A stretch of DNA of 64,000 nucleotides from Blattabacterium cuenoti (GTDB taxonomy: Bacteria > Bacteroidota > Bacteroidia > Flavobacteriales > Blattabacteriaceae), in NCBI RefSeq assembly GCF_014252335.1, contig NZ_CP059218.1, forward strand, positions 503,898 through 567,897, given 5' to 3'. Each line of letters opens with the position of its first letter. The stretch's first letter is position 1. The position numbers were made by a program, and so were the translations under genes. Positions 9,751 to 47,439 of the stretch are shown piece by piece. Under the pieces are notes generated by a model. That model did not search any database. It was given only the letters and a program-made list of their open reading frames with translations, and had not been told where the DNA came from.

Positions 9751-12425
9751 TAAATAATAATATTAATAATCTTATTCAAGATTTAAAAAAAACTTGTTTA
9801 AAAAAAATTATCAGATTAGTATCTTTTGATGAAAACGTTTCACATAATATTAAAACACAATATAAAAATAAACCCTTTTGTAATTATTCTACAATATCTC
9901 AATTAATGGAAAAAATATCTGGATTATCTATTTTTCCTGAATCCAACTTATTTTTTTATTTTTTTATTTTGCTAAAACAAAAAAAATGCATTTTATCTAA
10001 TACATTTCATTATTATTCAACATGGGCATATAATATATTAAAAGATTTCCAAATTTTAGATTTTAATTTAACTAATATAAAAAATTTTTTTTCTTATACT
10101 ATTTCTATAGAAAAAATAAACATATGGAATACAAATACTTATAATACACAATCTAACTTATTAAAAGAAAATATTTTGTTTTGGCAAGAAATAAAAAAAT
10201 ACTATTATTATCTTAATACTGAATTACTGAAAATCAAAAAGGGATATACTGGAATGATTTTTAGACAAGCAATTTCTCAATTTGAAAATTATTTATTTAA
10301 CAATCAAGAATATTTTTTATTTTTAATTCCTTCTAATTTATATTTTTTAAATGAATGTGAAAAAAAACTTATTCAAAATTCAATTAAATTTAATGTAGGA
10401 TCTATTTATTATTATAATAAATACTCAAAATCATATCATTATAATGTTTTTTTAAAAAAAAAAAAAAAGAATAACATTAAAATTTTTAGTGGATCTAGAG
10501 ATATTGATCAAATTAAAATAATAGAACAAATTATTCATAAACTGATAAAACAAGGATCTAAAATAGATCAAATAATTATTATATTAGGTGATAGTTATTT
10601 AATTGAATTGTTATCCAATACATTACATAACTTAAATATTCCAATACAAACATCTATTGAATTTCCATTATATAATTTGTTATTGCATAATACATTTTAT
10701 TCAATTTTACAATTGATTAAAAATAAAGAAATATATAAAAAATTTTATAAAAAAGATATATTACGAGTATTATCTAATGGATATATAAAAAAATTTTTTC
10801 TTAATAATAATATATCATGCATAGAAAACATTCATGCTATAAATGATGATAATTATTTAAACATACAACTTGTCAATAAATATATAATAGATGATATAAA
10901 AATTATTTTTAATAATTACAATAACATATTTATTTGGTTTTTACAAATACTTAAAATATTTCAAACATTTTTATCCCAATCTGTTAAAGAACATATATTG
11001 GAATTACAATTTATTCTGAAATTAGAAAAATATCTTACAAAAATCATTGATATAACAAATAATTTTAATTTTGATATACAAGATTTATTAATTATTTATC
11101 AAAACTTTATCACTAATAATACAATACCATATCCATATAATAATACAAAAGGATTAAAAATAATAAAATTTCATAATAACTTTAATTTAGATTATTTAGA
11201 AAATACAATTATTACATCTTTTAATGAAGGATGTATTCCTCCAATTATGCAAAATTATATAGACAAAACTTTTTTATCTACTGAGCTTAGAAATAAATTT
11301 AAAATCTATTGTATATACAATAATAAAAATAATAATAAATATTATTTTCAATATATTCAAAATATTTTGAATAATTCAAACAACATTTTTTTAATATATA
11401 ATAATGAAAAAGATGAATTTAATTCAGGAGAAAAAAGTCGATTTATACATCAAATGGAAATAAATTACACATTTGATGAAAATACAACAACAAAATATCA
11501 AGTATGTAATAATAATAATGAAAATAATCAACAATCAATAATAATAAAAAAAACAAATTATATAATTAATAGATTACATAAAATTGCCAATTCTGGATTT
11601 TCTCCATCATCTATTATGTTATATAATAAAAATAAATTAGATTTTTATTACAATAAAATACTTGAATTAAACAATATTAAAAATATTTCATTTAAACAAA
11701 AAATTGGAAATATTGTTCATAAAATATTAGAAATTTTATATTCTCCCATTAAAGGACATTTATTAAAATTAAAATATATTCATGAGATGAAAAATCATTA
11801 TTTTGATATTTCAAAAAGAGTAATATATAAATATAAAACTAAAGATACAGATACTAAAAATATATTCTTATTGTCTTTAGTTACCACTTATGTAAAAAAT
11901 TTTATTTCTTGGGATGAAAAAGAAATTTTAAATGGACATAAAATTGTGATAAAAGAAATTGAATATACCGTTTCTACAAAAATTAATCAAATGATCATGA
12001 TGCATTATGATACAGTTTATTTAAAAGGAATAATTGATCGTATAGATGAATATGACGGTATAACTAGAATTATTGATTATAAAATTGGAGTTTCCAAAGT
12101 AAAAAATCTTTATATATCTTCAAAAACAATTCAAAATATTTTTAACACTCCATATTATGGAAATATAATGCAATTATTAATTTATATATATTTATGGTAT
12201 AAATCCCCTATAGTTAACTCTAAAATCTCTCCATTAATTGCAATTGTTGCTCCTGAAAAAGAAAAAAATAATTATATTTCTACTATATATATAAATATTT
12301 TTAAAAATAAACAAATCATATATGAATGTTATAAACAAAAAATTTTTCCACATTTAACTAAAATAATTTCAGAAATTTTAGATCCCAAAATGCCAATTAT
12401 AATAAATTATATTAATGATTTTTAA
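9747..12425 (+). CDS. AddB-like PD-(D/E)XK nuclease/inactivated-helicase protein
   Basis: This 892-residue protein resembles the Bacteroidetes PD-(D/E)XK family related to AddB and RecB-type exonucleases used in double-strand-break repair. The C-terminal nuclease shows GNIVHKILEILY, then ILDR-like LKGIIDRIDEY and IIDYKIG (catalytic D and K). The middle (FSGSRDIDQIKIIEQIIHKL) matches the helicase-like core. The N-terminal helicase segment expected in the family is not recognisable. The start is TTG within the ribF stop. An A15 tract at 10454-10468 stays in frame. The partner AddA-like helicase is not here. Confidence 0.78.
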   Translation: MINNNINNLIQDLKKTCLKKIIRLVSFDENVSHNIKTQYKNKPFCNYSTISQLMEKISGLSIFPESNLFFYFFILLKQKKCILSNTFHYYSTWAYNILKDFQILDFNLTNIKNFFSYTISIEKINIWNTNTYNTQSNLLKENILFWQEIKKYYYYLNTELLKIKKGYTGMIFRQAISQFENYLFNNQEYFLFLIPSNLYFLNECEKKLIQNSIKFNVGSIYYYNKYSKSYHYNVFLKKKKKNNIKIFSGSRDIDQIKIIEQIIHKLIKQGSKIDQIIIILGDSYLIELLSNTLHNLNIPIQTSIEFPLYNLLLHNTFYSILQLIKNKEIYKKFYKKDILRVLSNGYIKKFFLNNNISCIENIHAINDDNYLNIQLVNKYIIDDIKIIFNNYNNIFIWFLQILKIFQTFLSQSVKEHILELQFILKLEKYLTKIIDITNNFNFDIQDLLIIYQNFITNNTIPYPYNNTKGLKIIKFHNNFNLDYLENTIITSFNEGCIPPIMQNYIDKTFLSTELRNKFKIYCIYNNKNNNKYYFQYIQNILNNSNNIFLIYNNEKDEFNSGEKSRFIHQMEINYTFDENTTTKYQVCNNNNENNQQSIIIKKTNYIINRLHKIANSGFSPSSIMLYNKNKLDFYYNKILELNNIKNISFKQKIGNIVHKILEILYSPIKGHLLKLKYIHEMKNHYFDISKRVIYKYKTKDTDTKNIFLLSLVTTYVKNFISWDEKEILNGHKIVIKEIEYTVSTKINQMIMMHYDTVYLKGIIDRIDEYDGITRIIDYKIGVSKVKNLYISSKTIQNIFNTPYYGNIMQLLIYIYLWYKSPIVNSKISPLIAIVAPEKEKNNYISTIYINIFKNKQIIYECYKQKIFPHLTKIISEILDPKMPIIINYINDF

Positions 12426-23321: not shown

Positions 23322-24410
23322 ATGATAATACAAGATGAAATATCATCAATTTCGCAAAAAATCAATAAACTAGAACAATTATTAGATATTAAAAATATCA
23401 AAAAATCATTAGAACATGATCAAGATAAAATGTTAACTCCTAATTTTTGGAAAGACAAAATAAAATATAAAAAATTTGTAAAAAATTTTCAAACTTTAAA
23501 AATCAAAATAAAAGATTTTACGCAACTGAAAAATGCAATGGAAGAACTTGAATGTATGTATTATATTTATAAAGAAGAACATATAGACACCAATATAAAA
23601 GTTCAATTAAATAAAACTAAAAAATTAGTAGATGATATAGAAATTAAAACATTGTTTAAGAAAGAAGATACTTATAATGCAATACTACAAATATCTTCTG
23701 GAGCAGGTGGTACTGAAAGCTGTGATTGGACGGCAATGTTAATGAGAATGTATATATTATGGGGTGAACATAATCAATTTATTGTGAATAAAATTCATCA
23801 TACTCCAGGTGATATAATTGGTACAAAAACCGTTACTTTAGAAATTAATGGAATTTATGCTTTTGGATATTTAAAAGGAGAAAATGGAGTACATAGATTA
23901 ATTAGAATATCTCCATTTAATAATAATTCAAAACGTCATACTACTTTTTCTTCAGTATTTGTTTATCCGTTTATAGAAAAAAAGATAGATATTAATATTA
24001 ATGTATCAGATATTCATTGGGATACTTTTCGTTCTCGTGGATCAGGAGGTCAAAATGTAAATAAAGTAGAAACTGGAGTAAGATTAAAACATGTGCCAAC
24101 AGGTATTATTATTGAAAATACTGAATCTAGATCACAAATTCAAAATCGACAAACAGCATTACAAATTCTAAAATCTAGATTATTTGAAATAGAAATTAAA
24201 AAAAATCTAGATAAAAAAAATAAAATAGAATCTAAAAAAAAAAAAATTGAATGGGGATCTCAAATAAGAAATTATATTATGCATCCTTATCAATTAGTAA
24301 AGGATTTAAGAACAGGATATGAAACTCATAAAGTACAATCTGTAATGAATGGAGAAATTAATACTTTTTTAAAAAAATTTTTAATACAAAACAACAAAAA
24401 CATATTTTAA
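23322..24410 (+). CDS. prfB: peptide chain release factor 2, without programmed frameshift
   Basis: RF2 terminates translation at UGA and UAA. The recognition motif SPF lies near residues 197-199 and the catalytic GGQ near 242-244 (GSGGQNVNKV). I chose ATG 23322 (MIIQDEISS) because it matches the family N-terminus; the frame is open back to a TTG at 23289 that lies in an inverted repeat. The frame is continuous through the place where most prfB genes carry an internal TGA with +1 frameshift (here LEQLLDIKN). An A13 tract at 24234-24246 stays in frame. Confidence 0.94.
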   Translation: MIIQDEISSISQKINKLEQLLDIKNIKKSLEHDQDKMLTPNFWKDKIKYKKFVKNFQTLKIKIKDFTQLKNAMEELECMYYIYKEEHIDTNIKVQLNKTKKLVDDIEIKTLFKKEDTYNAILQISSGAGGTESCDWTAMLMRMYILWGEHNQFIVNKIHHTPGDIIGTKTVTLEINGIYAFGYLKGENGVHRLIRISPFNNNSKRHTTFSSVFVYPFIEKKIDININVSDIHWDTFRSRGSGGQNVNKVETGVRLKHVPTGIIIENTESRSQIQNRQTALQILKSRLFEIEIKKNLDKKNKIESKKKKIEWGSQIRNYIMHPYQLVKDLRTGYETHKVQSVMNGEINTFLKKFLIQNNKNIF

Positions 24411-40923: not shown

Positions 40924-41874
40924 TTATAAAATATTATTCAAATATTTGTCTAAATCTAATGCGGCCATACATCCAGTTCCAGCTGAAATAATAGCCTGAC
41001 GATATATAGGATCTTGTACATCTCCTGCTGCAAATACTCCTGGTTTATTAGTAGATGTATTCCCATTTTGAACGGAAATATAACCTAAATTATCCATGAT
41101 AATTTGATTTTTAAATATTTTTGTATTTGGAACATGTCCAATAGCAATAAATAATCCACTAATTAAAATCGTATAACTTTTCTCATTTTTTGAATCAAAG
41201 ACTTTAATTCCTTCTAAAAACTGTTTACCTATAAACTTTACAATATGAGAACAAAAAAAAATTTTTATATTTTTTTTTTGAAAAATTATTGTTTGCAATA
41301 TTTTAGATGCTTTAAAATAATTTTTTCTTACTAAAAGATAAACATTATTACAAATTTTAGATAAAAAAATAGCTTCTTCTAAAGCAGTATCTCCACCACC
41401 TACAACAGCAACATCTTTTCCTTTATGAAAAAATCCATCACATGTAGCACAAAAAGAAATTCCTAATCCTAATAATTCTTTTTCTTTTTTTATATCTATA
41501 CCTAACAATTTAGGATTAGAACCAGTTGCAATAATTAACCCTATACTTCGTATATATTCTTTTTTACTATAATAAATATAATGTATACCTCCTTTTTTAT
41601 CAGATAATTCTACTTGAATAACATTTTTAGGAATTAAAATAACCTTAAATTTTTTGGCTTGTTCTTTGCAAAATTCCATAAATTGAGAACCATTAATACC
41701 TTGCGGATATCCTAAATAATTATCAATATAATGTGTAGTCGTTAATTGTCCTCCTGGCATCGATCCCATAAACATAATTGGATTAAGATCAGCACGTGCT
41801 GCATATATAGATGCAGAATATCCAGCTGGTCCAGATCCAATAATTACGCAATTGTTGATTTTATTTTTAAACAT
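40924..41874 (-). CDS. trxB: thioredoxin reductase
   Basis: This FAD/NADPH enzyme reduces thioredoxin. The FAD motif is IIGSGPAGYSASIYAARA, the redox pair is Cys142/Cys145 in FCATCDG, and the NADPH motif is VVGGGDTALEEA. The C-terminal GVFAAGDVQDPIYRQ is typical. The 316 residues are normal. It is the first gene before glyS on the minus strand and is divergent from the HsdR-N-like gene. Confidence 0.97.
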   Translation of the reverse strand: MFKNKINNCVIIGSGPAGYSASIYAARADLNPIMFMGSMPGGQLTTTHYIDNYLGYPQGINGSQFMEFCKEQAKKFKVILIPKNVIQVELSDKKGGIHYIYYSKKEYIRSIGLIIATGSNPKLLGIDIKKEKELLGLGISFCATCDGFFHKGKDVAVVGGGDTALEEAIFLSKICNNVYLLVRKNYFKASKILQTIIFQKKNIKIFFCSHIVKFIGKQFLEGIKVFDSKNEKSYTILISGLFIAIGHVPNTKIFKNQIIMDNLGYISVQNGNTSTNKPGVFAAGDVQDPIYRQAIISAGTGCMAALDLDKYLNNIL

Positions 41875-41899
41875 AAAAACATTATTTTGTGTTTTTAAT

Positions 41900-42334
41900 A
41901 TGTCAGATTTTAATTGTTTTATTACAAATTATTTATATTTAACTTATGTTAATAAAAAAACTTATATCTTCTGCAATATTAGAAAAAAATTTTATGCATT
42001 TACTGGAGAAGAATTAGTGCGACAATATATAATATTTTTATTAAAACAAAAACATTATAAAACATCTGATATATCTATAGAATATCCTTTTCAAATTAAT
42101 AATGTAAATAATAGATTGGATCTTTTAGTTTATAAACAACAAAAACCATATTTATTGATTGAATGTAAATCTCCAAATATTTCAATTACACAAAAAACAT
42201 TAGATCAAATTTCTAAATATAATCTAAAAATAAAAGCACCATATTTAATGATTAGTAATGGAATTAAACATTTAATCTTGAAAATCAATAAATATCATAA
42301 AAAATATTTATTTATGGATGATATTCCATTATAA
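41900..42334 (+). CDS. HsdR N-terminal-like PD-(D/E)XK orphan protein
   Basis: This 144-residue protein has a PD-(D/E)XK nuclease core: RLDLLVYKQQKPYLLIECK supplies D, E and K, as in the HsdR N-terminal domain family (HSDR_N_2). It has no helicase domain and no methylase or specificity partner, so it is not a restriction system. I chose ATG 41900 (MSDFNCFIT) over an earlier TTG-like start to avoid overlapping trxB. Standalone proteins of this kind are common in Bacteroidetes; their function is not known to me. Confidence 0.82.
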   Translation: MSDFNCFITNYLYLTYVNKKTYIFCNIRKKFYAFTGEELVRQYIIFLLKQKHYKTSDISIEYPFQINNVNNRLDLLVYKQQKPYLLIECKSPNISITQKTLDQISKYNLKIKAPYLMISNGIKHLILKINKYHKKYLFMDDIPL

Positions 42335-43361: not shown

Positions 43362-45179
43362 TTAATTTTTTACTTTTAAAAAATTGATAAACGTAGAATT
43401 AGGAATATTTACTTTACCTATTTGACGCATTTTTTTCTTTCCTTTTTTTTGTTTTTCTAATAATTTTCTTTTTCTAGATATATCACCTCCATAACATTTA
43501 GCAGTTACATCCTTTCTTAAAGCTTTGACTGTCTCCCTTGCAACAATTTTACCAGAAATAGATACTTGAATCGGTATACTAAACTGATGTTTTGGAATAA
43601 GTAAAGATAATTCATGACAAATTTCTTTTGCTCGTATTAACATATAATTTTTATGAACAAGAATAGATAAAGGATCAATTTGTTGATGATTAATAAATAT
43701 AGTCAGTTTTTTTAAATCAGAACTTTTATAAGTTAAAAAATTATAATCAAATGATGCATATCCTCTAGAAATAGTTTTTAATTTATTATAAAAACCGAAC
43801 ATAATTTCAGATAGTGGCATTTCAAACGAAAAATTAACTCTTTTTCCAAAAGATAAATATTTATGTGATCCAATCATATTACCACGTTTTTCCATACATA
43901 AAGAAATAATAGATCCTATAAAATTTTCTTTACTTATAATATTAACTAAAACATAAGGTTCCTCTATTTTAATCAGTTTCTCCATATCAGGAAATTCTGA
44001 AGGATTATTGATGATCATAAAACCATTAATATTTTTTTTAAAAACTCTATAAGACACATTAGGAACCGTAATAATAACATTCAATCCATACTCTCTTTTT
44101 AAACGTTCTTTTATAATTTCCATGTGCAGTATTCCTAAAAATCCACAATGAAATCCATAGCCTAATGCAGAAGAAGATACGGTATTAAAAATTAAAGAAG
44201 CATCATTTAACTTTAATTTTTCCATTGATGAAAGTAATTCCTCATAATCATTAGAATCAGAAGGATAAATACTAGCAAATACCATTGGTTTTACTTCTTC
44301 AAAATCATCTATAGATGTTAATGCAGGATCTTTATCATTTGTAATGGTATCTCCAACTTTCACTTCATCCGCATTTTTTATTCCAGACACAACATAACCA
44401 ACATCACCAGTTATTATCTCATTTTGAGCTATTTTTTTTAATTTTAATTTACCTATTTCATGTGCATAATAAATTTTCCCAGTGGACATAAATCTAAGTT
44501 TTTGTCCTTTTTTTATCACTCCATTCATTACTTTAAAATAAGCAATAATTCCTTTAAAAGGATTATAAACAGAATCAAAAATCATAGCTTGAAGAGGATA
44601 ATGTAAATTTCCTTTAGGATGTGGTATTTGTGTAATAATGTTTTCTAATACCTGTTTAATACCTATACCTTGTTTAGCACTAACAGATATAATCTCTTTA
44701 TGAGATTTACATCCTAATAATTCCATCATTTCACAAATAGTATTATCATATCTAGGGTCATTATTATCTAATAAATCCACTTTATTAATAATTGGAATAA
44801 TAATAAGTTTTTTTTTCAATGCTAAATACAAATTAGATATAGTTTGTGCTTGAACACTTTGTGTACAATCGACTACCAATAAAGCACCTTCACAAGTAGC
44901 AATAGAACGAGAAACTTCATAAGAAAAATCTACATGACCAGGCGTATCTATTAAATTTAGAGTATACATATTATTTTTATAACTATAGTTCATATGAACT
45001 GCATGACTTTTAATAGTAATTCCTCTTTCTCTTTCTAATTCCATATCATCTAATAACTGATTTTTGTTGTTATTAGAAGGTATAATAGTATTTGTGAATT
45101 CTAATAATCTATCAGCTAAAGTACTTTTACCATGATCTATATGTGCTATAATACAAAAATTACGAATATAACGAATCAT
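43362..45179 (-). CDS. lepA: elongation factor 4 (LepA)
   Basis: LepA is a translational GTPase related to EF-G that helps stalled or misassembled ribosomes. The G1 motif [18 protein letters not shown] and NKVD are present. The C-terminal LepA-specific domain has [28 protein letters not shown]. The 605 residues are normal. It follows pth after a gap of about 118 bases. Confidence 0.96.
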
Positions 45180-45297
45180 ACAAAAATTAATTAAAAAAAA
45201 CCTTTAAGTAAAATAAGGAAATATTATTACCTATTCAATTTCAATCAATAGGATTACTAATATTATATTCTATACTACTTAATTAAACTACAAGGTA

Positions 45298-45911
45298 TTA
45301 TTTAATCATATTATTATTTAATTTACATTTATGATTAAAAAGATTCATAGTATATATTAATCCATGAACTACAAATGAAAAAATTATATCCATACTAATA
45401 TCTAAATTTTTTAATATATATTCTAATTCATTTTGATACCAAGTACCTAATACATAATCTTCTATTTTATATTTTTTTATCAAAAAATCATTTTTGATAC
45501 CAAATCTAAGACGTGCATAATTAGAATTTTCTAATTCTTTTTCAATACTTTTCAATCCATTATGTCCAGCAGTTCCACCTTTTCCTTTTAAACGAAAATT
45601 GCCAAAATTAAGATAAATATCATCTAATATGATAAGGATGTTCTGTAAAGACACTTTTTTTTTTTCATCCAATATTTTACTGCATGGCCACTTTCATTAA
45701 CATATGTATAAGGCTTTAAAAAAAATATTTTTTTATGTTTATATGATAACATTGAAGAAATAAATCCAAATTTTTTTTTTATAAAAGTAAATGAATACTT
45801 TTCAGATATTTTATCTAATATCAAAAATCCAATATTATGTCTAGTATAATTATACCTTTTTCCAGGATTACCTAATCCTATTATTAAATATTTTATATTA
45901 TTATCATACAT
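45298..45911 (-). CDS. pth: peptidyl-tRNA hydrolase, split by a frameshift at a poly(A) tract
   Basis: Pth recycles peptidyl-tRNA and is normally essential. The first frame (45911-45624) carries YLIIGLGNPGKRYNYTRHNIGF with the catalytic His. The second (45672-45298) carries ILIILDDIYL, the catalytic Asp and TAGHNGLKSI. The break is in an A11 tract (minus strand; 45665-45655), between WMKKKK and VSLQNI. One more A, or two fewer, restores a single frame. All active-site residues survive across the two frames. It may be expressed by polymerase slippage, be a sequencing error, or be newly dead. Confidence 0.88.
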
Positions 45912-45914
45912 ATC

Positions 45915-46832
45915 TCATAATATATTATTGATTTTATTACTTCTTATCTTATCGCACATAATTTCATGTACTCTAATACCAATTTCATACAGTGATTTTA
46001 CCATATGTATACCACATGTTTCTAATATTTTCATTTTTGATTGTGCTGTTTCAATTTCTTTTCCTATAATAGCGCCTGCATGACCCATAGTAATACCTTT
46101 AGGCGCAGTTTGACCAGCTATAAAACCAATTATAGGTTTTTTATTTATAGTTGGTAAATTTTTAAACCATTTTGCTGCATCTATCTCTAATTGTCCTCCA
46201 ATTTCTCCAATTAAAACAATACATTCAGTTTCTATATCATGCAAAAATAAATTAATTACATCCTTAATATTTATTCCAATAATAGAATCACCACCTATTC
46301 CAACTGCTGTGGAAATTCCATAACCAATTTTTAATATTTGATCTGCTGCTTCATAAGTTAATGTTCCTGATCTAGAGACAATTCCTATATTACCTTTTTT
46401 TCTAAAAACAATATTTGGCATAATTCCAATTTTTGATTTATCTGACGAAACTATTCCAGGACAATTGGGTCCAATTAAATAGCTGTTCTTACCTTTTAAA
46501 AAAGATTTTACTCTAATCATATCATATATTGGAATTCCTTCTGTAATACAAACAATAATTTTCATTTTAACACTAATAGCTTCCATAATAGCGTCTGAAG
46601 CAAATGCAGATGGAACAAAAATAATACTTACATTACCATTGGTATGCTTTACAGCTTTTTCCATAGTATTAAAAATCGGAAGTCCTAAAGATATTTGACC
46701 ACCTTTACCTGGAGTTACTCCACCAACTATTAATGTTCCATAATTCAACATTTGTTGAGTATGAAATAAACCTTCTTTACCAGTTAATCCCTGAACAATT
46801 ACACGAGAATTTTCATTAACTAAAATACTCAT
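45915..46832 (-). CDS. sucD: succinyl-CoA synthetase alpha subunit
   Basis: This is the alpha subunit of the TCA-cycle enzyme that makes ATP or GTP from succinyl-CoA. The CoA site GLTGKEGLFHTQQM and the active-site histidine in MGHAGAIIG are present, along with IGPNCPGIV. The 305 residues are near normal. The beta subunit SucC is not in the window. It is 3 bases upstream of pth. Confidence 0.95.
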   Translation of the reverse strand: MSILVNENSRVIVQGLTGKEGLFHTQQMLNYGTLIVGGVTPGKGGQISLGLPIFNTMEKAVKHTNGNVSIIFVPSAFASDAIMEAISVKMKIIVCITEGIPIYDMIRVKSFLKGKNSYLIGPNCPGIVSSDKSKIGIMPNIVFRKKGNIGIVSRSGTLTYEAADQILKIGYGISTAVGIGGDSIIGINIKDVINLFLHDIETECIVLIGEIGGQLEIDAAKWFKNLPTINKKPIIGFIAGQTAPKGITMGHAGAIIGKEIETAQSKMKILETCGIHMVKSLYEIGIRVHEIMCDKIRSNKINNIL

Positions 46833-46845
46833 AACAAATAATAAA

Positions 46846-47439
46846 TTATTTTATTTTTTTTGTTTTTATTCTTTCTATATAAGATTTTTTATATGTATTA
46901 ATTTTAATAAATTCTCCAGCATTTATAAATACAGGCACTAATAATGTATTTAGAGTTTCTAAAATAGCTATTTTACTAGATTTTTGAATAATATCTCCTT
47001 TTTTTACAGAAATGGTATCTTTAATTTGCAAAATAACAGTAGATGGCATTTTAATACATAAAATTCTTTTTATATTATTTTCAATTTGAAAATAAATATA
47101 AAAATTCATTCCTTCTTTGATAAATTCAATATTTTTCATAAATATATTATCAATTTGAATTGTTTGATAATTTTCAATATTCATGAAATAAAATAATTGT
47201 TTTATTTTATATAAAAATATATAAATTTTTGATTTTACTTCAACTTCTGGTATTTTATGTTTTGAAGGAAAATTCTGTTCTAATATATTTTGATTAATAA
47301 CATGTCTTAATTTAGTCCTCATAAATGCATCTCCTTTTCCAGGTTTGACATGCATAAAATCAATTACTTTATAAATTTCATTATTATATTTTATATATAA
47401 TCCTTTTTTAATATGTACATAAAGTTTTTTTTTTAACAT
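46846..47439 (-). CDS. efp: elongation factor P
   Basis: EF-P relieves ribosome stalling at proline runs. The N-terminal KOW-like domain carries the loop HVKPGKGDAFMRTKLRH, whose Lys is the position modified in many species. OB-like domains II and III follow. The 197 residues are slightly above 188. It lies between lpxC/fabZ and sucD with gaps of 9 and 13 bases. Confidence 0.94.
   Translation of the reverse strand: MLKKKLYVHIKKGLYIKYNNEIYKVIDFMHVKPGKGDAFMRTKLRHVINQNILEQNFPSKHKIPEVEVKSKIYIFLYKIKQLFYFMNIENYQTIQIDNIFMKNIEFIKEGMNFYIYFQIENNIKRILCIKMPSTVILQIKDTISVKKGDIIQKSSKIAILETLNTLLVPVFINAGEFIKINTYKKSYIERIKTKKIK

Follow-up and report, generated by a model that had tools for sequence, protein, structure and literature searches.

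Peptidyl-tRNA hydrolase (Pth) is normally essential in bacteria. Judged by open frames alone, 8 of 49 Blattabacterium genomes seem to have a broken copy of its gene, pth, as if the enzyme had been lost, and one of these copies lies in the window analysed here (the whole stretch of 64,000 nucleotides). Does such a split gene still yield the enzyme? Comparison across the genus suggests that full-length Pth is probably still made, because RNA polymerase slipping at a homopolymer run would sometimes add a base to the RNA copy or leave one out.

The split pth locus

The genome to which the window belongs (G000) is a single contig of 567,897 bases (568 kb). The gene order on the minus strand of the window is sucD, pth, lepA: sucD (45915..46832), directly upstream, ends 3 nt before the pth start, and lepA (43362..45179) lies downstream; both are intact here and in all 49 genomes. 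The 5′ part of pth (45624..45911, minus strand) is a 95-aa open reading frame (ORF) that matches positions 1–79 of the 183-position PF01195 profile with 87.6 bits; its first ~80 residues are Pth sequence and the remainder is an out-of-frame tail. The 3′ part (45298..45672, minus strand) is a 124-aa ORF with a TTG start, matching positions 77–183 with 87.2 bits. Each half exceeds the cut-off of 27 bits, but it takes both, in neighbouring frames, to cover the whole profile. The two ORFs overlap at a run of 11 adenines on the coding strand (45655..45665, minus strand), the site of the frame change, which ends in A AAA AAG. This bears out the sequence-only reading, which had placed Pth in two overlapping frames at an 11-base A run. 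That reading had also held that one added A restores the frame; the downstream frame is indeed −1 relative to the upstream one, an offset that a single-base insertion in the RNA would bridge.

The closest relative, G006 (567,420 bases, record labelled Blattabacterium cuenoti), carries an intact pth encoding a 202-aa protein. Among its ORFs of at least 90 aa compared with the window, 52 of 53 were matched, 51 of them cleanly, pth being the sole interrupted one. The 3′ ORF is 79% identical to the G006 protein, which was also its best match outside its own genome in a protein search (best 120 of 539 matches listed); the same 120 matches held no one-frame Pth of the window's own species. The 5′ ORF retrieved six short proteins, the first the window's own and the second an 83-aa protein labelled Blattabacterium cuenoti. 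A scan of 45200–47000 was uninformative, with 22 promoter-like sites against 16.7 expected and no terminator, and a plasmid search matched only a distant lepA.

All five catalytic segments are present, as had been claimed for the His, Asp and Asn segments on both sides of the run: GLGNPG, TRHN and YVNESG lie 5′ of the A11 run, and LDD and GHNG lie 3′ of it. On the minus strand, the Asn codon of GLGNPG (45867..45869; N19 of G006) presumably corresponds to E. coli N10, the His codon of TRHN (45837..45839; H29) to the catalytic H20, and the Asn codon of YVNESG (45696..45698; N76) presumably to N68. Beyond the run, we take the Asp-Asp codons of ILDDI (45619..45624; D101 and D102) to represent the D93 region and the Asn codon of GHNGLK (45559..45561; N122) to represent N114. 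Each of these residues is invariant in the alignment. The one departure is G119A (G006 numbering), an alanine beside the intact GHNG where at least 95% of the aligned intact copies have glycine.

Profile searches of the G000 genome found no substitute for Pth in the form of a second pth, PTH2 or ArfB. No other PF01195 match occurs in the 567,897 bases, PTH2 gave 0 matches, and PF00472 matched just a 371-aa and a 383-aa frame; because both are of release-factor size, the genome holds no ArfB-sized candidate. A tmRNA was found; tmRNA rescues stalled ribosomes and is not known to replace Pth.

Among five genomes tested for a tRNA-Arg(CCG) gene 3′ of pth, one was found in G006, G004, G032 and G026 and none in G000, where 45242–45296 (minus strand) holds a 52-nt relic with a 78% match. 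Searching 30 genomes of the genus with the 74-nt tRNA-Arg(CCG) gave strong matches in 26, a shorter relic in G011 and none in G041 or G047. In window ORFs of at least 120 aa, none of the 19,112 codons is CGG, compared with 3 of 18,752 in the corresponding G006 region. Because this tRNA is reduced to a relic and CGG codons are absent from these ORFs, CGG may go unread in G000. On the plus strand, 41852–42334 encodes a small protein resembling HsdR_N (PF13588, from a scan of the G006 counterpart) that is intact in 42 of 49 genomes.

Recurrence of the split in the genus

PF01195 was searched in 49 genomes, and 17 genes were surveyed in the 20-kb stretches around pth. The gene is present in all 49 and split in eight. 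Three split copies (G000, G011 and G027) share one place of break, four (G021, G025, G026 and G037) share a second and one (G048) has a third; G026 is Blattabacterium cuenoti strain EUPOLsin. The break positions fall at about residues 62–69, 87–90 and 143–147 of G006. Sister genomes in which pth is plainly degraded on both sides, a case raised by the sequence-only reading, are not what the survey found: the gene forms one open frame in 41 genomes, each split copy is broken once only, and none of the eight has a stop in either part.

The break regions contain A11 in G000, G011 and G037, A12 in G027, A10 in G048 and T11 in G021, with A10 followed by C and T10 in G025 and A12 followed by T10 in G026; seven of the eight breaks are at lysine runs. 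The one-base gap in G026 is aligned within a short stretch of Ts immediately 5′ of the A12 run, so the long run may not be where this copy first broke. Relative to the upstream frame, the downstream one is shifted by −1 in six copies (G000, G011, G027, G025, G026 and G048) and by +1 in two (G021 and G037); with two offsets of equal likelihood, chance alone would give at least six −1 copies among eight about once in seven.

In a tree built from nine proteins encoded near pth (3,484 columns), Fitch parsimony over the 49 genomes places six changes between the intact and split states. G025, G026 and G037 (hereafter the trio) form one clade with support 1.0, while every other split genome has an intact sister. 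The trio has a common place of break, but run length and offset differ among its members, which suggests that the run either changed length while out of frame or broke more than once. Parsimony points to inheritance of one old split by the trio, separate breaks being the other possibility.

In an order-wide survey of 148 genomes (20 of the genus, two of these split), a pth match was found in 139 and none in nine. Adjoining pth pieces occur in only one of the 128 genomes outside the genus, G113, which is incomplete (71% complete). In G081 a further, partial match lies on a different contig, and the matches in G092 and G139 are partial. A literature search, largely of titles and abstracts, found no report of a split pth in Blattabacterium, and a term search of PMC9603385 and PMC6039017 found no mention of peptidyl-tRNA hydrolase.

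To place the runs on the protein, we used the predicted fold of the intact G006 Pth (mean pLDDT 90). The A runs map to about residues 62–65, between strands 59–61 and 64–71; to residues 87–90, at the end of helix 75–89; and to residues 143–147, at the end of strand 137–144. The T run of G021 is the only one within a strand (64–71). Because the A runs sit between or at the ends of structural elements of this model, lysines gained or lost by three-base slippage are likely to be tolerated in most split copies.

Constraint and homopolymer controls

Within the trio, pth shows a dN of 0.06–0.15, a dS of 0.17–0.46 and a dN/dS of 0.21–0.35 across its 5′ and 3′ parts; in pairs from the trio, dN/dS is ~0.25–0.28 for the neighbour pheT and ~0.16–0.25 for lepA. 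The split gene is constrained in this clade, slightly less than its most conserved neighbours. Neutral simulations with substitutions only, which take the break and the trio to be of equal age, kept the sequence free of stops in 2–3% of runs when 0.10 substitutions per site were applied and in 0.07–0.33% with 0.20.

For five of the eight split copies, lineage-specific residue changes could be compared with an intact sister; the trio lacks one inside its clade, and G010 served as partner of G011. The ratios of split to intact were 12:8, 6:6, 9:21, 11:17 and 21:39, and because they total 59:91, these five split lineages show no acceleration. The signal for the window's own copy is weak: against G006, dN/dS is ~0.45 in the 5′ part and 0.53 in the 3′ part, with changes of 12:8, and a very young loss in G000 alone would not yet show in decay tests.

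Two neighbouring loci, efp and lpxC-fabZ, show the series expected of gene loss, unlike pth. efp has no match in 6 of the 49 20-kb stretches and 4–17 stops in five, and lpxC-fabZ has 5–8 stops in four genomes (G002, G004, G015 and G016). Altogether, efp gives no match or at least four stops in 11 of 49 genomes; the 20-kb loci with such changes in efp or lpxC-fabZ include L084 (G002), L094 (G028) and L086 (G004). Elongation factor P and the lpxC-fabZ step of lipid A synthesis look dispensable in parts of the genus. The split pth group shows neither the accumulating stops and indels of a pseudogene nor a dN/dS near 1. Three of the five features that define a slippage-rescued gene, the others being a mixed mRNA pool and a full-length protein, are found instead: a single indel in an A/T run in G000, a gene otherwise intact in all eight copies and under purifying selection in the trio, and recurrence among relatives. 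With respect to the single indel, G026 is ambiguous, and G025 carries an A10 run as well as a T10 run.

Intact copies of the 17 genes in the 49 neighbourhoods contain 72 in-frame A/T runs of at least 11, only two of them in pth (counted in 39 of its 41 intact copies; G013 and G014, which have no ATG start, were left out). Runs of this length are broken in six cases and in frame in two in pth, against three broken and 70 in frame in the 16 other genes (Fisher p = 7e-6, which is indicative only, the related genomes not being independent). The three broken runs outside pth are all in a dnaN-like gene. In the eight assemblies with a split pth, these 16 genes contain 50 in-frame runs of at least 10, and none of them changes frame. 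Runs of 12–15 also lie inside long ORFs of the window; A15 at 10454 and A13 at 24234, within ORFs of 839 and 362 aa, would make good in-genome controls for a measurement of RNA slippage.

The survey recorded 29 frame changes in nine genes, 8 in pth and 21 elsewhere. The latter include changes at runs shorter than 11 (hyp13306 of G009 at A10, efp of G004 near T9 and rpmA of G046 near A8), gene ends without a run (six in glyS, one in lepA), changes in decayed genes and those in the dnaN-like gene. The latter gene has a weak PF02768 match, below the cut-off, and changes frame near A runs of 11–13 in L070 (G030), L080 (G015) and L088 (G032); the G030 and G015 matches are without any stop. A passage of a Blattabacterium paper (PMC6039017) lists dnaN as a pseudogene. 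Survey stop counts of up to three for split pth arise where a second match extends back over the break, sufS is cut off by the end of the stretch in many genomes, and the neighbour labelled lpxD? is an M14-peptidase-like gene.

Readings of the split gene and known systems

The sequence-only reading had named slippage rescue, a sequencing error and recent loss as the options, and the comparative data favour slippage. At the break site, G006 reads AAAAAAGAAAAAG, and the interrupting G is absent from G000. Its loss may have created a long pure A run, whose length could then have been altered by replication slippage, with loss of the frame in DNA. The longest A run at this site is 6 in 25, 10 in seven and 11 in one of the 46 genomes not split there, and 11, 11 and 12 in the three split copies. 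RNA polymerase slipping on such a run would produce mixed RNAs, a minority of them mRNA in frame, and the reduced dose might be tolerated if Pth, as a catalyst, is needed in small amounts. Passages of PMC5574713 report that homopolymers in Buchnera transcripts account for 151 of 157 insertions as against 16 of 57 deletions, and that single bases make up 80% of insertions. The −1 offset in six of eight copies fits slippage, because these insertions are mostly single-base and in homopolymers. Against it, single-base insertion alone leaves the +1 copies, G021 and G037, unbridged, and the same paper, PMC5574713, found no frame-restoring transcription error.

An error in homopolymer length is very unlikely. 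Runs of 10–12 are error-prone, but the break is found in eight assemblies whose equal or longer neighbouring runs stay in frame. The grouping of three split copies (the trio) in a single clade is unexpected of random errors, and the excess of broken runs in pth, the unbroken runs of the same eight assemblies and the runs of 12–15 in the window all speak against miscalled bases. A very recent pseudogenisation, with Pth now dispensable and each copy caught at its first lesion, is unlikely. The frame-splitting change in G000 can be arbitrarily young, and G119A alters a conserved glycine there, so that the case against loss is weak for G000 alone. For the group, dN/dS, relative rates and the lack of stops disfavour it: pth is missing from none of the 49 genomes while efp and lpxC range from intact to decayed or without a match, the trio is constrained, the five other lineages show no acceleration, and no alternative Pth was found.

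Slippery heptamers of the dnaX type and programmed frameshifting of the dnaX/prfB type are familiar, and ribosomes might bridge a faithfully transcribed run by −1 frameshifting, a route that we consider rather unlikely here. The heptamer A AAA AAG in G000 is the likeness to these systems, and the −1 offset in six copies, all at A runs coding for lysine, agrees with it. The offset is not constant, however, being +1 in G021 (at a T run) and G037. Unlike the programmed cases, G000, the one site folded, shows no unusual RNA structure in the 106 nt around and after the run (z = −0.53), and hence no stimulatory structure, nor is there any sign of a programmed short product. Ribosomal slippage in dnaX is mentioned in a passage of PMC3017870. 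Separate translation of the two halves and their assembly into an active split enzyme is extremely unlikely. A TTG just before the run and a GTG just after it are possible starts for the 3′ ORF, but the places of break differ, so that several unrelated split enzymes would be needed; moreover, the G000 break falls between strands 64–71 and 96–106 of the predicted fold, with catalytic segments on separate pieces. We also considered whether an out-of-frame poly-lysine run could act as a self-adjusting valve on Pth supply, which seems highly improbable. Impaired growth of E. coli without Pth has reportedly been attributed to Lys-tRNA starvation. If a valve existed, Pth shortage would let peptidyl-tRNA-Lys accumulate and deplete charged Lys-tRNA, and ribosomes, once stalled, would shift by −1 at the AAA/AAG run, making more full-length Pth. 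Such a valve would explain the frequent breaks at lysine runs (seven of eight) and the mostly −1 offset (six of eight), and pth would then be an RF2-like autoregulated gene that arose repeatedly.

Rescue by RNA polymerase slippage, the reading that we prefer, has been met before. Slippage-corrected frameshifted genes of Buchnera and Blochmannia were reportedly described by Tamas (2008) and Wernegreen (2010). The sequence-only reading had pointed to these two symbionts, and passages of PMC3017870 and PMC5009743 supply the precedent, describing homopolymer frameshifts corrected by transcriptional slippage; corrected transcripts make up 12–50% in other symbiont genes (a passage of PMC5009743). 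Like those genes, pth here belongs to an AT-rich insect symbiont, carries one poly(A) or poly(T) indel, is otherwise intact and constrained, and has a frameshift kept or recurring in relatives. It differs in being a translation-maintenance gene of the Bacteroidota. If the reading holds, a constrained gene can stay out of frame in DNA across a clade while its run length differs; open frames would then say little about whether a gene works in AT-rich symbionts.

The nearest counterpart is pth of Blochmannia vafer, for which a passage of PMC3017870 describes a homopolymer frameshift without rate acceleration and proposes correction. It is the same gene with the same kind of lesion and, as here, no acceleration; there, one of three genomes is affected, whereas here the split is found in 8 of 49, with six inferred events at three places in pth. 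Walczuchella is likewise a flavobacterial symbiont with homopolymer frameshifts, said in a passage of PMC3971599 to be possibly functional; pth is not mentioned in that passage among its frameshifted genes. G064, a 300-kb genome of the window's family, has pth in one frame. Compared with the cases in Buchnera and Blochmannia, those in Blattabacterium add another phylum, the recurrence of the split and a clade that has likely retained it. Repeated breaks in so small a gene, also seen in Blochmannia vafer, would make pth a natural test of how far an enzyme can be supplied by transcription errors.
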